From Defluviicoccus sp. (GTDB lineage Bacteria > Pseudomonadota > Alphaproteobacteria > MPNO01), in the NCBI GenBank assembly GCA_028820945.1, contig JAPPHW010000176.1:1-17342 (forward strand): a DNA stretch of 17,342 nt, read 5' to 3'. This document shows, piece by piece, positions 3,010 through 7,252 of this stretch. Numbering within the stretch: the first letter of the stretch is position 1; every line of letters begins with the position of its first letter. The notes below the pieces were generated by a model. It did no database searches, was not told the origin of the DNA, and saw only the letters and a program-made list of their open reading frames with translations. The position numbers and the translations under genes are program-made.

Positions 3010-3261
3010 ATGACCATGACCGCCAAGCTGTTCTGGAACGGGAGATCCCAGGCCGTGCGGCTCCCCAAGGAATTCCGCATGCCCGGCAAGGAGGTCCGGA
3101 TTCGCCGCCAAGGCGCGGCGGTCGTGCTCGAGCCGATTGCCGACGGCTGGGAGTGGCTCGATGAAATCCAGGGCAAATTCTCCGAGGATTTCTTTGCCGA
3201 AGGCCGCAACCAGCCACCGATGCCGCCGCCGCGGCCGGGGCTCGACGAAGCATTCGAATGA
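3010..3261 (+). CDS. vapB: Type II antitoxin, VapB family (AbrB-fold)
   Basis: This 83-residue protein starts with the VapB/AbrB-SpoVT swapped-hairpin DNA-binding domain. The segment AKLFWNGRSQAVRLPKEFR (about residues 5-23) is a hallmark of chromosomal VapB antitoxins. The C-terminal half, ending in a proline-rich stretch (MPPPRPGLDEAFE), is expected to wrap around and block VapC. The ATG at 3010 is preferred over an in-frame ATG at 3016 because an AGGGG ribosome-binding site (2998-3002) sits 7 nt upstream of it. The stop overlaps the vapC start (ATGA at 3258-3261), coupling the two. Autorepression through the upstream palindrome is likely. Confidence 0.92.
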   Translation: MTMTAKLFWNGRSQAVRLPKEFRMPGKEVRIRRQGAAVVLEPIADGWEWLDEIQGKFSEDFFAEGRNQPPMPPPRPGLDEAFE

Positions 3262-3671
3262 TGCGCTACCTGCTGGACGCGAATGCCTGTATCGCGCTCC
3301 TCAACGCCAGCTCCCGCAGCCTCTCCGCGCGGGCGCGGCGCCACAGAGCGGGAGAGATGGGACTCCCCGCCCCGGTGGCGTTCGAGCTCTACTACGGCGC
3401 CTTCAAGAGCCGGGAGGGAAACCGAAACCTCGGCTATCTCGACCGCATGGCGTTCGAAATCGTCCCCTTCGACGCGGCCGACGCGCGGGCGGCCGGCGCG
3501 ATCCGCCGCGATCTCGAGGCCCGCGGGCTGCCGATCGGCCCCTATGACGTGCTGATCGCCGGCCAGGCGCGGGCGCGCGACCTGGTGCTGGTCACCGCCA
3601 ATACCCGCGAATTCGAACGGGTGGACGGGCTGAAGGTCGAGGATTGGTCCACCCCCTTGCCGGAGGGCTGA
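3258..3671 (+). CDS. vapC: Type II toxin, VapC family PIN-domain ribonuclease
   Basis: This 137-residue PIN-domain protein is the predicted toxin of the pair, a Mg2+-dependent endoribonuclease of the VapC family (known members cut tRNA or rRNA). Acidic residues expected in the active site are visible: Asp7 in YLLDANACIA, Glu43 in VAFELYYGAF and Asp97 in IGPYDVLIAG. The C-terminal LVTANTREFERVDGLKVEDW matches the family end almost exactly. Two adjacent ATGs (3258 and 3261) are possible; 3258 gives the ATGA overlap with vapB, while 3261 gives the commoner MRYLLD start. The catalytic residues look intact, so the toxin is probably active. It lies between two metabolic operons, and the target RNA cannot be inferred. 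Confidence 0.92.
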   Translation: MMRYLLDANACIALLNASSRSLSARARRHRAGEMGLPAPVAFELYYGAFKSREGNRNLGYLDRMAFEIVPFDAADARAAGAIRRDLEARGLPIGPYDVLIAGQARARDLVLVTANTREFERVDGLKVEDWSTPLPEG

Positions 3672-3683
3672 ACGGCCGCCCCC

Positions 3684-3711
3684 CCAACCGGCCAACTTGC
3701 CGGTTGGCCGG
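3684..3711 (+). other. Two mutually exclusive hairpins between vapC and the selenoprotein gene
   Basis: The segment can fold in two ways. CCGGCCAAC (3688-3696) pairs over 9 bp with GTTGGCCGG (3703-3711) around a 6-nt loop. Alternatively CCAACCGG (3684-3691) pairs over 8 bp with CCGGTTGG (3700-3707) around an 8-nt loop. The arms overlap, so only one can form. No T-tract follows. It could end vapBC transcription, protect a 3' end, or regulate entry into the downstream operon. Confidence 0.5.
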
Positions 3712-3732
3712 CGGCGGGCGAACGGCGATAAT
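3704..3732 (+). promoter_or_regulatory. Possible promoter of the CMD-molybdenum hydroxylase operon
   Basis: A -35-like TTGGCC (3704-3709) and a -10-like GATAAT (3727-3732) are separated by exactly 17 bp. Transcription would begin about 22 nt before the ATG at 3761. The -35 element overlaps the right arms of the hairpins. This is a pattern match only; read-through from vapBC is the alternative. Confidence 0.4.
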
Positions 3733-3760
3733 CCGGCGCCGTATTCCGAGGGACCGCGCC

Positions 3761-4405
3761 ATGCCCAATATCCGCATGCTCGACATCGAGGAACTCAAGG
3801 CGGGCAAGCTCCGCCCGCTGGTCAACAAGGCGCTGCGCCACCGTGCGCCCGACCCCGCCTTCCACGCGATGCTGGGCCACAGCCCCGATATCGCGCGCTC
3901 GATGTATCTCGCCTGGGGCGCGGTGTTCAACACCGGGCGGATCGACCACAAGCTGAAGGAAATCATCCGCGTCCAGCTGTCGCGGATGGCCGCGTGCCGC
4001 TATTGAGGCAACGTCCGGTCTGCTTCGGCGAAGCAGCAGGGATTGACGGAAGAGACCATCGACGAGGGTATCGAGGCCCATGCGTCGAGCGACCGCTTCA
4101 CCCCGGCGGAGAAGATCGCGCTCCGCTACTCGGAGCTGATGGGGACCGCGCCGGAGAAGGTCGACGCCGCGCTCTACGACGCGCTGGCCGAACACTATTC
4201 GGTCGAGGAGATCGTCGAGCTCGGCGCCTTCGTCGGCTTCAACGTCGGCTACCACACCTTCTTCGGGACGCTCGACTTCTACCCGATGTTCACCCCGGAC
4301 GGACGGCTGGTCGACCAGGCGGAGTCGCGGCGGATCTACGGCGAGACCCCGGTCTCGCTCGACAAGGGCGCGATCGAGCGCGCCACGGCGGAAGCCGCCG
4401 AATGA
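3761..4405 (+). CDS. Putative selenoprotein: carboxymuconolactone decarboxylase / AhpD-like family, CxxU motif (Sec82)
   Basis: Read with TGA 4004-4006 as selenocysteine, this gene encodes 214 residues. CMD/AhpD-like proteins are helical oligomers whose CxxC pair does thiol redox chemistry. Here the motif reads Cys79-Arg-Tyr-Sec82-Gly-Asn-Val-Arg-Ser, so the TGA replaces exactly the second redox cysteine. Homology continues uninterrupted in the same frame (GLTEETIDEG, SSDRFTPAEKIALRY, VEEIVELGAF), and the neighbouring paralogue aligns on both sides. A SECIS-like hairpin follows (4020-4036). The start ATG 3761 has a GAGGGA-type ribosome-binding site about 10 nt upstream and opens the conserved region; a longer in-frame ATG (3644) lies inside vapC. 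The gene overlaps the next by ATGA. Standard gene calling would split it into two fragments (to 4006 and from about 4043). The alternative is a nonsense mutation or sequencing error of TGC/TGT. The substrate is unknown, and no Sec machinery genes lie in the window. Confidence 0.82.
4007..4040 (+). promoter_or_regulatory. SECIS-like element downstream of the in-frame TGA
   Basis: A perfect 7-bp stem CTGCTTC (4020-4026) / GAAGCAG (4030-4036) closes a GGC loop (4027-4029). Two more C-G pairs (4015-4016 with 4039-4040) can extend it across a small internal loop. The loop begins 20 nt after the TGA with G in its first two positions, matching the general bacterial SECIS pattern: short stem, guanine at the loop start, roughly 16-37 nt from UGA. 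Codons in the arms (TCT, GCT) end in T, unusual beside neighbours that nearly all end in G or C, as expected if RNA structure constrains them. Confidence 0.72.
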
Positions 4406-4953
4406 GCACCGCGCGCGCGACTTTGCCGCCGATCCCCCGGTCGGAGATCGACGATCCCGGGCTCCGGGCGCTGATCGCGCGCACGGATGAGACCGGCGTC
4501 GGGGACTCGCGTTTCGTCCGGCTGATGGCGTACGTGCCGGGCTATGCCGAGGCGCTGCACGACGCTCTCGACCGCTCGCTGATGGAAGGCGAGGTCGATC
4601 ACGGGCTCAAGGAAGTCGTCCGCATCCAGCTCGCTCGCCTCGCGGGCGATCCCTACTTTGCCGCCTTCCGGTCGAAGCGCGCGCTGGAAGACGGGCTCAC
4701 CGAGGAACGGATCGAGGCGGGCTGCGGCAATTTCGAGACCGACGACCGCTTCACGCCGGCCGAGAAATGGGCGCTTCGCTACGGCTGGCTGATGTACCGC
4801 GCGCCAGAGAAGGTCGACAAAGCGTTCTACGACGAGGGCAAGACCCATTATTCCGAGGCCCAGATCGTCGAGCTCGGCGCCTTCATTGCCTTCCACTACG
4901 GCATGCAGATCTTCCTCAGCACCCTGGACCTGCCCGCGGAAGAAGGTGCCTGA
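4402..4953 (+). CDS. CMD/AhpD-like family paralogue lacking the redox motif
   Basis: This 183-residue protein is a clear paralogue of the preceding gene product. Matching blocks include DHGLKEVVRIQLARLAG, DGLTEERIEAG, DDRFTPAEKWALRY, APEKVDKAFYDEG and EAQIVELGAF. At the redox motif it reads Asp83-Pro-Tyr-Phe86 where the upstream protein has Cys79-Arg-Tyr-Sec82, so both catalytic positions are lost; only one cysteine (about 108) remains. It probably cannot do CxxC-type chemistry alone and may be a structural or regulatory partner in a hetero-oligomer, since CMD/AhpD-like proteins are commonly trimers or hexamers. It starts at ATG 4402, overlapping the upstream stop by 4 nt, and its own end overlaps the molybdenum hydroxylase gene by 8 nt. 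The partner role is inference; independent binding of a small molecule is possible. Confidence 0.88.
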   Translation: MSTARATLPPIPRSEIDDPGLRALIARTDETGVGDSRFVRLMAYVPGYAEALHDALDRSLMEGEVDHGLKEVVRIQLARLAGDPYFAAFRSKRALEDGLTEERIEAGCGNFETDDRFTPAEKWALRYGWLMYRAPEKVDKAFYDEGKTHYSEAQIVELGAFIAFHYGMQIFLSTLDLPAEEGA

Positions 4954-7252
4954 CACGCGGATCGAAGATCCGCCGCTGCTGCGCGGGCGGGCGCGCTTCG
5001 TCGACGACATCCATCTGCCCGGGACCCTGCACGCGGCATTCGTGCGGAGCCCGCTGGCTCATGCCGCGATCTCGGGGATCGACAAGCGCGCGGCGGAGGC
5101 GGTATCCGGCGTGCACGCCGTGTGGACGTTCGACGACCTGAAACGCCATCTCGCCGAAGAACGCCTGGTCGTGGGCCTGCCGAGCCCGGCATACCGCCAG
5201 CAACGCGACCGGCCGCTGCTCGCCGCGGGCGAAGCCGTCCATGTCGGCGAGGCGGTGGCGATGGTCGTCGCGGGCTCGCGCTATGCGGCCGAGGATGCGG
5301 CGGCGACGGTCGAAGCGGTCTACGAACCCCTTGCCGTCGTCGCCGATTGCCGCGAGGCGCTGGCTCCCGGCGCGCCGCCGGTCCATCGCGACGGCGATCA
5401 CAACCTGCTCGCCGAACTCGTCATGGAATTCGGCGACATCGAGGCCGCCTTCGCGGGAGGCCGCGTCTTCTCCGCCGGCCTCTCCGTCCACCGCGGCGGC
5501 GGGCATTCGATCGAGGGGCGCGGCGCGCTTGCCCGCCACGACGCGATCGACGATCTGCTCACCCTCTGGAGCTCGACCCAGACGCCGCATGCCGGACGCA
5601 ACCTGATCGCCCGCATGCTTGGCCGGGAGGCGCGCCGCGTCCGGGTCGTCGCTCCGGCGGTGGGCGGCGGGTTCGGCCCCAAGCTCGTTACCTATCCCGA
5701 GGAGGTCGCGGTCGCCCTTGCGGCGCTTCTGCTCGCGCGCCCGGTCAAGTGGATCGAGGACCGGCGCGAACATTTCGTCGCCAGCACGCAGGAGCGCGAC
5801 CAGTTCTGGGAGGTCGAGGCGGCGTTCGACGCCGACGGCGCTATCCGCGGCGTGCGCGGCACCATGGTGCACGATCACGGCGCCTACACCGCGCGCGGCG
5901 CCAACCTGCCCTACGAGTCCGCGCTCACGGTCACGCTGCCCTACGACGTCCCGGCCTACCGGCTTACCGCCCGCGCGGCACTGACCAACAAGGTGCCCGT
6001 CACGCCGGTCCGGGGCGCCGGCCACCCGCAGGCGGTCTTCGCCATGGAACGCCTGCTGGACAAGGCGGCGGAGGGGCTCGGCATCGACCGGTTGACAATC
6101 CGCCAACGCAACCTGATCGGGCCGGAGCGTATGCCATGCACCCGCCCGCTGCAGAGCCGGGGCGGGCGCAAGGTGGTGCTCGACAGCGGCGACTATCCGG
6201 GCTGCATGCGCGCCGCGCTGGATGCGGCCGGCTGGGACGGGTTTCGGGCGCGGCGCGACGCGGCGGCGGCGCGGGGGCTCGCCCGCGGCATCGGGCTCGC
6301 CAACTACGTCAAGGGGACCGGGCGCGGGCCATTCGAGTCCGCCAGCGTCGCCATCGATCCGTCGGGAACGGTGTCGGTCGCTTCGGGTGCGGCGCCGATG
6401 GGGCAGGGAATCGAGACCATGCTCGCCGACATCGTCGCCGGGGCGCTCGGCTGCGACCGCGATCGTGTCAGGGTCACCGCGGGCGACACGGCTGCGGTCG
6501 CGCTCGGCATCGGCGGGTTCAACAGCCGACAGGCGGTGACCGCGGGGAGCTCGGCCTACAACGCCGCGCGCGAGGTTCGTGACAAGGCGCTCGCCGTCGC
6601 CGCGCGTCACCTGGAGGCAGCGGAAGAGGACTTGGAGGTCGCGGGCGGCGCGATCCGGGTGCGCGGCGCGCACGATCTCTCCGTCGGCCTCGGCCGGCTC
6701 GCGGAGACGGTAGGCGGCACGCCCGGCGTGACCCTGCCGGAGGGGATCGCGCCGGGCCTCGCGGCGGAAGAGAATACGGTGCTCGACGACATGCCGTTCG
6801 CCAACGGCACCGCTGTCGCCGAGGTCGAGATCGACCGCGAGACCGGCCATACCGTGCTCGCCGGGCTCGTCGTCGCGCACGATTGCGGGCGCATCGTCAA
6901 CCCGGCCATCGTCGAGGGCCAGATCGTCGGCGGCGCGGCGCATGCCGTTGGCAATGCGCTCTACGAATGGATGGGCTTCGACGGCGATGCACAGCCGCTG
7001 ACGACGAACCTCGCGGACTACCTTCTTCCCGGTTCGACCGACGTGCCGAGGATCGCTACGGTGCACATGGAATCGCCGAGCCCGCTCAACCCGATCGGGG
7101 TCAAGGGGGTAGGCGAGTGCGGCACAGTGCCGACCGCCGCCGCCATCGCCGCCGCGATCGAGGACGCGCTCGGTCTCCCCGGCGGCACGATAGACCGGAC
7201 GCCGCTTTCGCCGGCCGACATCGGGACGCTCGCGCATGACCGCACGGTTTGA
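4946..7252 (+). CDS. Xanthine dehydrogenase / aldehyde oxidase family molybdopterin-binding large subunit
   Basis: This 768-residue protein is the molybdenum-cofactor subunit of the molybdenum hydroxylase family (xanthine dehydrogenase, aldehyde oxidase, CO dehydrogenase-like). It opens with the usual RARFVDD and RSPLAHA blocks. The cofactor motif VGGGFGPK is at residues 239-246, an RGAGHPQA segment aligns with the RGAGR region of non-CO-oxidising members, and the C-terminal KGVGECG carries the predicted base Glu724. It lacks the AYxCSFR signature of true form I CO dehydrogenase. FeS and FAD subunits are not in the window, so it is alone or works with partners elsewhere. I chose GTG 4946 (GGAAG-like ribosome-binding site just upstream) because it overlaps the previous stop by 8 nt and precedes the conserved region; an upstream ATG at 4886 is the alternative. 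Substrate unknown. Confidence 0.92.
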   Translation: MPDTRIEDPPLLRGRARFVDDIHLPGTLHAAFVRSPLAHAAISGIDKRAAEAVSGVHAVWTFDDLKRHLAEERLVVGLPSPAYRQQRDRPLLAAGEAVHVGEAVAMVVAGSRYAAEDAAATVEAVYEPLAVVADCREALAPGAPPVHRDGDHNLLAELVMEFGDIEAAFAGGRVFSAGLSVHRGGGHSIEGRGALARHDAIDDLLTLWSSTQTPHAGRNLIARMLGREARRVRVVAPAVGGGFGPKLVTYPEEVAVALAALLLARPVKWIEDRREHFVASTQERDQFWEVEAAFDADGAIRGVRGTMVHDHGAYTARGANLPYESALTVTLPYDVPAYRLTARAALTNKVPVTPVRGAGHPQAVFAMERLLDKAAEGLGIDRLTIRQRNLIGPERMPCTRPLQSRGGRKVVLDSGDYPGCMRAALDAAGWDGFRARRDAAAARGLARGIGLANYVKGTGRGPFESASVAIDPSGTVSVASGAAPMGQGIETMLADIVAGALGCDRDRVRVTAGDTAAVALGIGGFNSRQAVTAGSSAYNAAREVRDKALAVAARHLEAAEEDLEVAGGAIRVRGAHDLSVGLGRLAETVGGTPGVTLPEGIAPGLAAEENTVLDDMPFANGTAVAEVEIDRETGHTVLAGLVVAHDCGRIVNPAIVEGQIVGGAAHAVGNALYEWMGFDGDAQPLTTNLADYLLPGSTDVPRIATVHMESPSPLNPIGVKGVGECGTVPTAAAIAAAIEDALGLPGGTIDRTPLSPADIGTLAHDRTV

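Follow-up and report, generated by a model that had tools for sequence, protein, structure and literature searches.

The 17,342-nucleotide contig JAPPHW010000176.1 of Defluviicoccus sp. (assembly GCA_028820945.1), hereafter the window, carries a gene of the AhpD/CMD family with an in-frame TGA codon at the second position of its redox motif. We conclude that this TGA, at 4004-4006, is very probably decoded as selenocysteine (Sec). Taken as a whole, the reading in which the product is a selenol-dependent AhpD/CMD enzyme that forms a heterodimer with a Cys-less paralogue encoded immediately downstream is, in our judgement, probable. The features on which the argument turns are as follows.

3761..4405, forward strand: predicted selenoprotein gene of the AhpD/CMD family (PF02627, 42.1 bits for a cut-off of 23; TGA conserved; purifying selection)
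3959..3961, forward strand: codon of Glu67, the counterpart in the alignment of the proton-relay Glu in AhpD/PA0269; invariant in 23 of 23 rows
3995..4006, forward strand: putative active-site motif Cys79-Arg-Tyr-Sec82 (CxxU), read from the sequence and, in alignments, opposite the Cys-x-Tyr-Cys of PA0269 and Bmp8
4020..4036, forward strand: predicted bacterial selenocysteine insertion sequence (SECIS) hairpin, with a 7-bp stem and a GGC loop (4027-4029), 20 nt past the TGA
4402..4953, forward strand: partner gene, encoding a 183-aa paralogue (PF02627, 23.5 bits for the same cut-off of 23) with Asp and Phe at the redox site

The in-frame TGA is conserved and followed by a selected frame

The frame runs from ATG 3761 to the stop at 4403-4405 with a single in-frame TGA, giving 214 residues of which the TGA is residue 82. 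An earlier note, made from the sequence alone, had read a CxxTGA motif followed by Gly-Asn-Val-Arg-Ser at this place, and the codons bear it out one by one: TGC (3995-3997), CGC (3998-4000), TAT (4001-4003) and TGA (4004-4006), then GGC AAC GTC CGG TCT, that is, Gly-Asn-Val-Arg-Ser. The 132 codons that it had counted past the TGA to 4405 are indeed open up to the stop, and the two broken genes that it expected from ordinary annotation are what the open reading frame (ORF) caller returned: a 120-codon ORF at 3644-4006 and a second 120-codon ORF from TTG 4043.

Relatives were fetched from genome contigs by six peptide patterns, none of which covers the TGA site. TGA stands at the aligned codon in all 46, in a matched stretch that holds no other stop; the same site in related genomes was where the earlier note had proposed to look. 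The titles of these 46 loci span several phyla: Defluviicoccus (5), other Rhodospirillales, Nitrospinota, Acidimicrobiia, SAR324 and others. Near-copies occur among them (for example L013 and L015, despite their different titles), and dereplication at 5% over 390 nt left 35 of 45 rows, the window being counted and L044 and L046 excluded as incomplete. Profile searches extended the picture. Within the phylum of G026 (title: Nitrospinae), 16 of 18 genomes carry the gene, all with TGA, 13 of them being already among the 46. Within the class of G002, which is that of the Defluviicoccus metagenome-assembled genomes (MAGs), five of a sample of 385 genomes carry it at an E value of 1e-90 or better, G002 included and again all with TGA. 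Samples of 296 genomes from the phylum of G034 and 52 from that of G036 held no carriers besides G034 and G036.

The main pieces of window DNA that align with the five Defluviicoccus loci, up to 10 kb in length, show 87-92% identity. Compared with these loci, the nonsynonymous rate (dN) 3' of the TGA is 0.004-0.023 and the synonymous rate (dS) 0.14-0.24; dN being far below dS after the TGA indicates that the downstream part is under protein-level selection. The same imbalance is found 5' of the TGA.

If the TGA were a plain stop, the locus would be a decaying pseudogene or encode two separate peptides. The ORF caller, which closes at 4006 and reopens at 4043, behaves accordingly, and 109 of the 129 local alignments to database proteins described below begin after the TGA. 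However, the TGA is conserved, and the frame beyond it open, in 46 of 46 relatives whose titles span several phyla; this, the low dN past the TGA, the frozen SECIS codons and the Sec machinery that accompanies the gene (the last two described below) all speak against a plain stop. This explanation is very improbable, and was rejected on the conserved TGA, the dN far below dS and the frozen SECIS codons.

Cys and Trp forms at the site

A search of 5.8 billion predicted proteins found 320, of which the best 120 were used. Most listed copies are headless fragments since gene callers stop at the TGA: 109 of the 129 local alignments begin at or after residue 82. The site is spanned by the other 20, among them seven proteins with Trp and a fragment (P0021) with Cys, the only Cys at the site seen within the subfamily among the proteins listed. 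The remaining twelve were set aside: nine with Phe are the partner halves of fusions, P0020 (Phe) is partner-like, and P0022 (Cys) and P0051 (Leu) are apparently frame-shifted. A second search of the same 5.8 billion proteins, with residues 20-105, gave 14 candidates, of which the 12 listed comprise the same seven Trp proteins, two that stop just before the TGA, one Cys-less protein, one frame-shifted protein and the uninspected P0124. A full-length Cys form was found neither among the best 120 of the 320 proteins nor among these 12 of 14 candidates. Cys does occupy the exact site in a sister family found by profile, as CxYC or CxFC-GNQRS in six proteins (L111, L114, L115, L119, L120 and L121), the kind of homologue that the earlier note had named as support for Sec; L084 and L117 also have Cys, in other sequence contexts. 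With Cys at the site in distant relatives and Sec nearly fixed in the window's subfamily, exchange of Sec and Cys is seen, in the sequences compared, between families. Two other AhpD-like proteins, L105 (CNLU) and L116 (CGYU), have TGA at the second redox position and are possibly further Sec subfamilies.

The seven Trp proteins are what would be expected if TGA were read as tryptophan (code 4) or as another standard residue. Their longest contigs, however, measure only 806-1319 bases, which suggests a gene caller in TGA=Trp (code-4) mode, and this is probably where these entries come from. Trp, moreover, is not a redox residue and the sister proteins have Cys there, the matched stretches of the 46 relatives hold no other in-frame TGA, and a Trp code would leave the frozen hairpin without a function. 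The Trp reading was rejected on the sister Cys, the single in-frame TGA and the hairpin; we rate it as very improbable.

A candidate SECIS hairpin follows the TGA

The predicted hairpin (CUGCUUC-GGC-GAAGCAG) has a bare stem of -7.6 kcal/mol. It lies within the bacterial SECIS limits given in the relevant passage of PMC13188914: a 3-nt loop with G first, 7 bp, 20-nt spacing and -7.6 kcal/mol. Residues 88-91 use one codon each across the dereplicated rows, compared with a mean codon homozygosity of 0.44 at 49 other conserved columns (p 1.5e-4). Across 40 distinct rows, 98.9% of stem cells are paired, and the second stem pair varies as U-A (28 rows), C-G (9) and U-G (3). Three measures were higher than in any of 500 shuffles: the share of paired cells, the count of cells with changes on both sides, and the covariation score. 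Five loci folded as 53 nt were all under -7.5 kcal/mol. The search of the window against Rfam returned no family, which says little because bacterial SECIS elements in general have, to our knowledge, no Rfam family, and a tRNA search of the window found none.

Sec machinery in the relatives' genomes

A tRNA-Sec match of at least 59 bits was found in 36 of the 46 relatives' genomes. We set this limit ourselves, above the gathering score of 47, because matches between the two values also occur and may represent other tRNAs; 47 is exceeded in 5 of 14 control genomes. Genes over the curated cut-offs were found for SelB in 34 of the 46 genomes versus 2 of 14 controls, and for SelA in 35 versus 1 of 14. 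These genes were among those that the earlier note had proposed to look for: selA, selB and selC (tRNA-Sec) occur together in 29 of the 46 genomes and at least one of the three in 41, and all are present in the five Defluviicoccus MAGs, the closest relatives. In the sample of 385 genomes, selA is over the cut-off in 56, namely in 5 of 5 carriers of the gene versus 51 of 380 non-carriers (Fisher 5.6e-5; 3.8e-4 without G002). The phylum of G026 adds nothing, since 13 of its 16 carriers and one of its two non-carriers have selA. With TGA kept in 46 of 46 relatives, Cys in the sister family and sel genes in most relatives, the earlier note's view of a probable selenoprotein stands.

The gene is coupled to a Cys-less paralogue

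The ATG of the partner gene overlaps the stop of the Sec gene (ATGA). The two proteins are 43% identical over 163 columns with no gap, so that the gap-free alignment of the paralogue across the TGA, on which the earlier note relied, is reproduced. The partner was sought in 47 loci, the window included, of which 44 are testable, as three contigs end too early: a paralogue is the next gene in 43, with gaps of -26 to 52 nt, and in the other, L036 (SAR324), both are fused in a 426-residue chain. The redox positions of the 43 partners read Asp/Phe in 39, Asp/Ser in 3 and Ala/Phe in 1; all 43 retain the Glu and the Arg. Nine headless fusions of the same layout are in the database (P0006, P0007, P0009-P0013, P0015 and P0019), P0007 being the L036 protein. 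A 45-row tree places 18 Sec proteins (support 93/97) and 18 partners (100/99) in separate groups; the nine outside rows, some of them on long branches, lie on the opposite side, and the partners have the longer branches. These separate groups fit one old duplication after which the partner would have lost its redox residues.

We consider it probable, from gene order, natural fusions and structure models, that the Sec protein and its Cys-less partner form a heterodimer. The alternative, in which the Sec protein alone is an AhpD-like homo-oligomer and its neighbour is unrelated or a regulatory remnant, draws on the characterised AhpD-like proteins, described in the relevant passages of PMC3141380 as homo-trimers and hexamers, and on the six Cys genes of the sister family, which have no second such gene within about 1.5 kb, in loci of 3.2-3.5 kb. 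Against it stand the adjoining partner in 43 of 44 testable loci and its fusion in the other, the nine database fusions of the same layout, and the model predicted for the fusion (pTM, the predicted template modelling score, 0.86). We regard the homo-oligomer as unlikely.

Three further observations concern partner genes. In genome G175 (L103, L106, L110), one partner gene is flanked by two Sec copies, both with the TGA and the same hairpin. In genome G071, a partner copy at 19546-20154 of contig 32 is listed with an in-frame TAG. Finally, L113 (genome G499), a more distant relative, has TGA in a CDYU motif, and its stop is followed downstream by a CMD-like ORF that is degenerate and lacks the redox motif; L113 is perhaps a second, separate Sec protein with a disarmed partner.

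Relation to known families

The best curated match of both proteins is NF053654, 'YciW-related (seleno)protein', at 64.7 bits for the Sec protein and 33.6 for the partner. Its cut-off of 310 bits is far above this score and the Sec protein is not a member. Nor does the Sec protein belong to TIGR01926 (32.5 bits for a cut-off of 81.8), the peroxidase-related family (COG2128) of the same superfamily which, as listed in the survey passages, includes CxxU forms (AhpD-like 1). Reports of CxxU selenoproteins in the AhpD/CMD superfamily date from 2005 and 2008, and current lists include them, according to the passages concerned (PMC1088965, PMC2398784, PMC9312934, PMC13188914), so that the earlier note's caution that the family might not be wholly new was justified. 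Among them are the 'CMD domain-containing' proteins of the Sargasso Sea (PF02627, 4 sequences; PMC1088965) and the 'AhpD-like 2' proteins of the Global Ocean Sampling (GOS) survey (PF02627, 70 sequences; PMC2398784). As described in these passages, they share with the window's protein the PF02627 domain, the CxxU motif and an origin in environmental bacteria; the passages, which allow a comparison by description only, mention no fixed Cys-less partner or fusion. The window's subfamily may be among the Sargasso CMD sequences already listed. At the level of passages, the literature searched yielded no selenoprotein with a fixed Cys-less partner, fusion or sestrin-like layout, and searches on selenoprotein/sestrin/AhpD and on selenocysteine/AhpD/heterodimer gave nothing judged related from the listing.

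Active site and likely reaction

The spacing Glu-12-Cys-x-Tyr-Cys given in the relevant part of PMC3141380 is matched by Glu67, Cys79, Tyr81 and Sec82. The PA0269-type AhpD of Pseudomonas aeruginosa (2IJC, 2O4D), a homohexamer according to the same source, differs in having Cys for Sec and His for Arg86.

Sec-tRNA would be delivered by SelB bound to the hairpin at 4020-4036. By analogy with the AhpD active site, Sec82, since it replaces the C-terminal Cys of CxxC, would act as the attacking selenolate. Glu67 would be the base and Arg86 (His in AhpD) would keep the selenolate in place; Cys79 would resolve the oxidised Sec by forming a selenenyl-sulfide, to be reduced by a cellular thiol system. 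The partner, with Glu and Arg kept and no redox residue, would complete an AhpD-type dimer and contribute to the shape of the substrate pocket, in the way that the redox half and the non-redox half of sestrins work together. On the same analogy, peroxidase/reductase chemistry is somewhat favoured, most likely with an organic hydroperoxide, or an electrophile like it, being reduced. The chief competing reaction is reductive dehalogenation of the kind performed by the debrominase Bmp8, which is the best PDB profile match, with a CMD fold and CxxC at the site; Sec would then serve as in thyroid deiodinase. Bmp8 has Cys for Sec, its debromination differs from the favoured reaction, and a literature search on Bmp8 and deiodinase gave nothing on topic. 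We hold dehalogenation to be improbable.

Neighbouring genes

Among the 30 ORF clusters printed for the 47 loci, the partner is the only general neighbour. The others vary by lineage, and in the ten clusters annotated include aminotransferase class III, FAD-binding, HMGL-like, SDR, cupin, MFS, FAA hydrolase, alpha/beta hydrolase, UPF0261 and CoA transferase proteins; operon context was dropped as a guide to the substrate since neighbours differ by lineage. Downstream of the partner lies a further feature.

4886..7252, forward strand: CoxL-like molybdenum hydroxylase large subunit (Pfam MoCoBD; true start probably about 4950)

Its ORF cluster (cluster 14) occurs in the window, in L001-L005 and, on the opposite strand, in L042; this gene accompanies the pair in the Defluviicoccus group and lies outside the conserved unit. 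The annotated window genes on either side of it are not its medium or small subunit. Upstream of the Sec gene, a pair at 3010-3671 encodes a MazE-type antitoxin and a PIN-domain protein.

Likeness to sestrins

Two AhpD-like halves are predicted in the arrangement of sestrins, and in sestrins, as in the window's pair and its fusions, the redox half comes first; human Sestrin2, at 12% identity, has Cys for Sec. The bacterial analogues from Corynebacterium and Comamonas, as presented in the relevant passages of PMC11429811, differ in carrying their cysteines in the C-terminal half. A Pfam scan listed no sestrin match, and a profile search of PDB sequences with E up to 10 gave no sestrin chain, the gap-rich columns of the N-terminal half having been dropped from the profile. 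Tentatively, and at somewhat less than even chances, the system might be a bacterial, Sec-armed counterpart of sestrins: an ancient AhpD duplication would have left one copy to become CxxU and its redox-dead twin to serve as obligatory partner or ligand-binding half, the two being made as coupled proteins in most lineages and elsewhere as a single chain that starts, as sestrins do, with the redox half.

Several observations weigh against the interpretation set out here. The resemblance to Sestrin2 is at the level of fold only, at 12% identity; Z increases with match length alone, and resemblance to Sestrin2 is also reported, in a passage of PMC11429811, for an artificial AhpD dimer. The heterodimer and the reaction are argued from gene order, natural fusions and models. 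Arg86 takes the AhpD His position in 23 of 23 rows, so that the canonical AhpD active site is not found and the protein is AhpD-like rather than a canonical AhpD. Concerning Sec itself, Trp stands at the site in the seven database proteins, and Cys in the one fragment; the sel-gene counts are from relatives' genomes, and five of the 46 (G011, G013, G027, G031 and G040), which are taken for incomplete MAGs, have no tRNA-Sec, selA or selB above the limits. As for the hairpin, two of the five covariation measures, the numbers of covarying pairs and of pair types, were no better than in shuffles (486 of 500), covariation is confined to one of the seven stem pairs, and L022, L027 and L029 each have one broken pair. 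The fold of the 49-nt stretch after the TGA in the window is no more stable than those of shuffled sequences (z -0.42; 62 of 200 did as well), and the bare 17-nt stem is weaker than -7.5 kcal/mol in four of six loci folded (L022, L027, L029 and L034).

Taken together, Sec is seemingly locked into one subunit of an asymmetric enzyme. If the heterodimer is true, it would offer a testable bacterial model for a lopsided AhpD dimer, a step proposed in the origin of sestrins.
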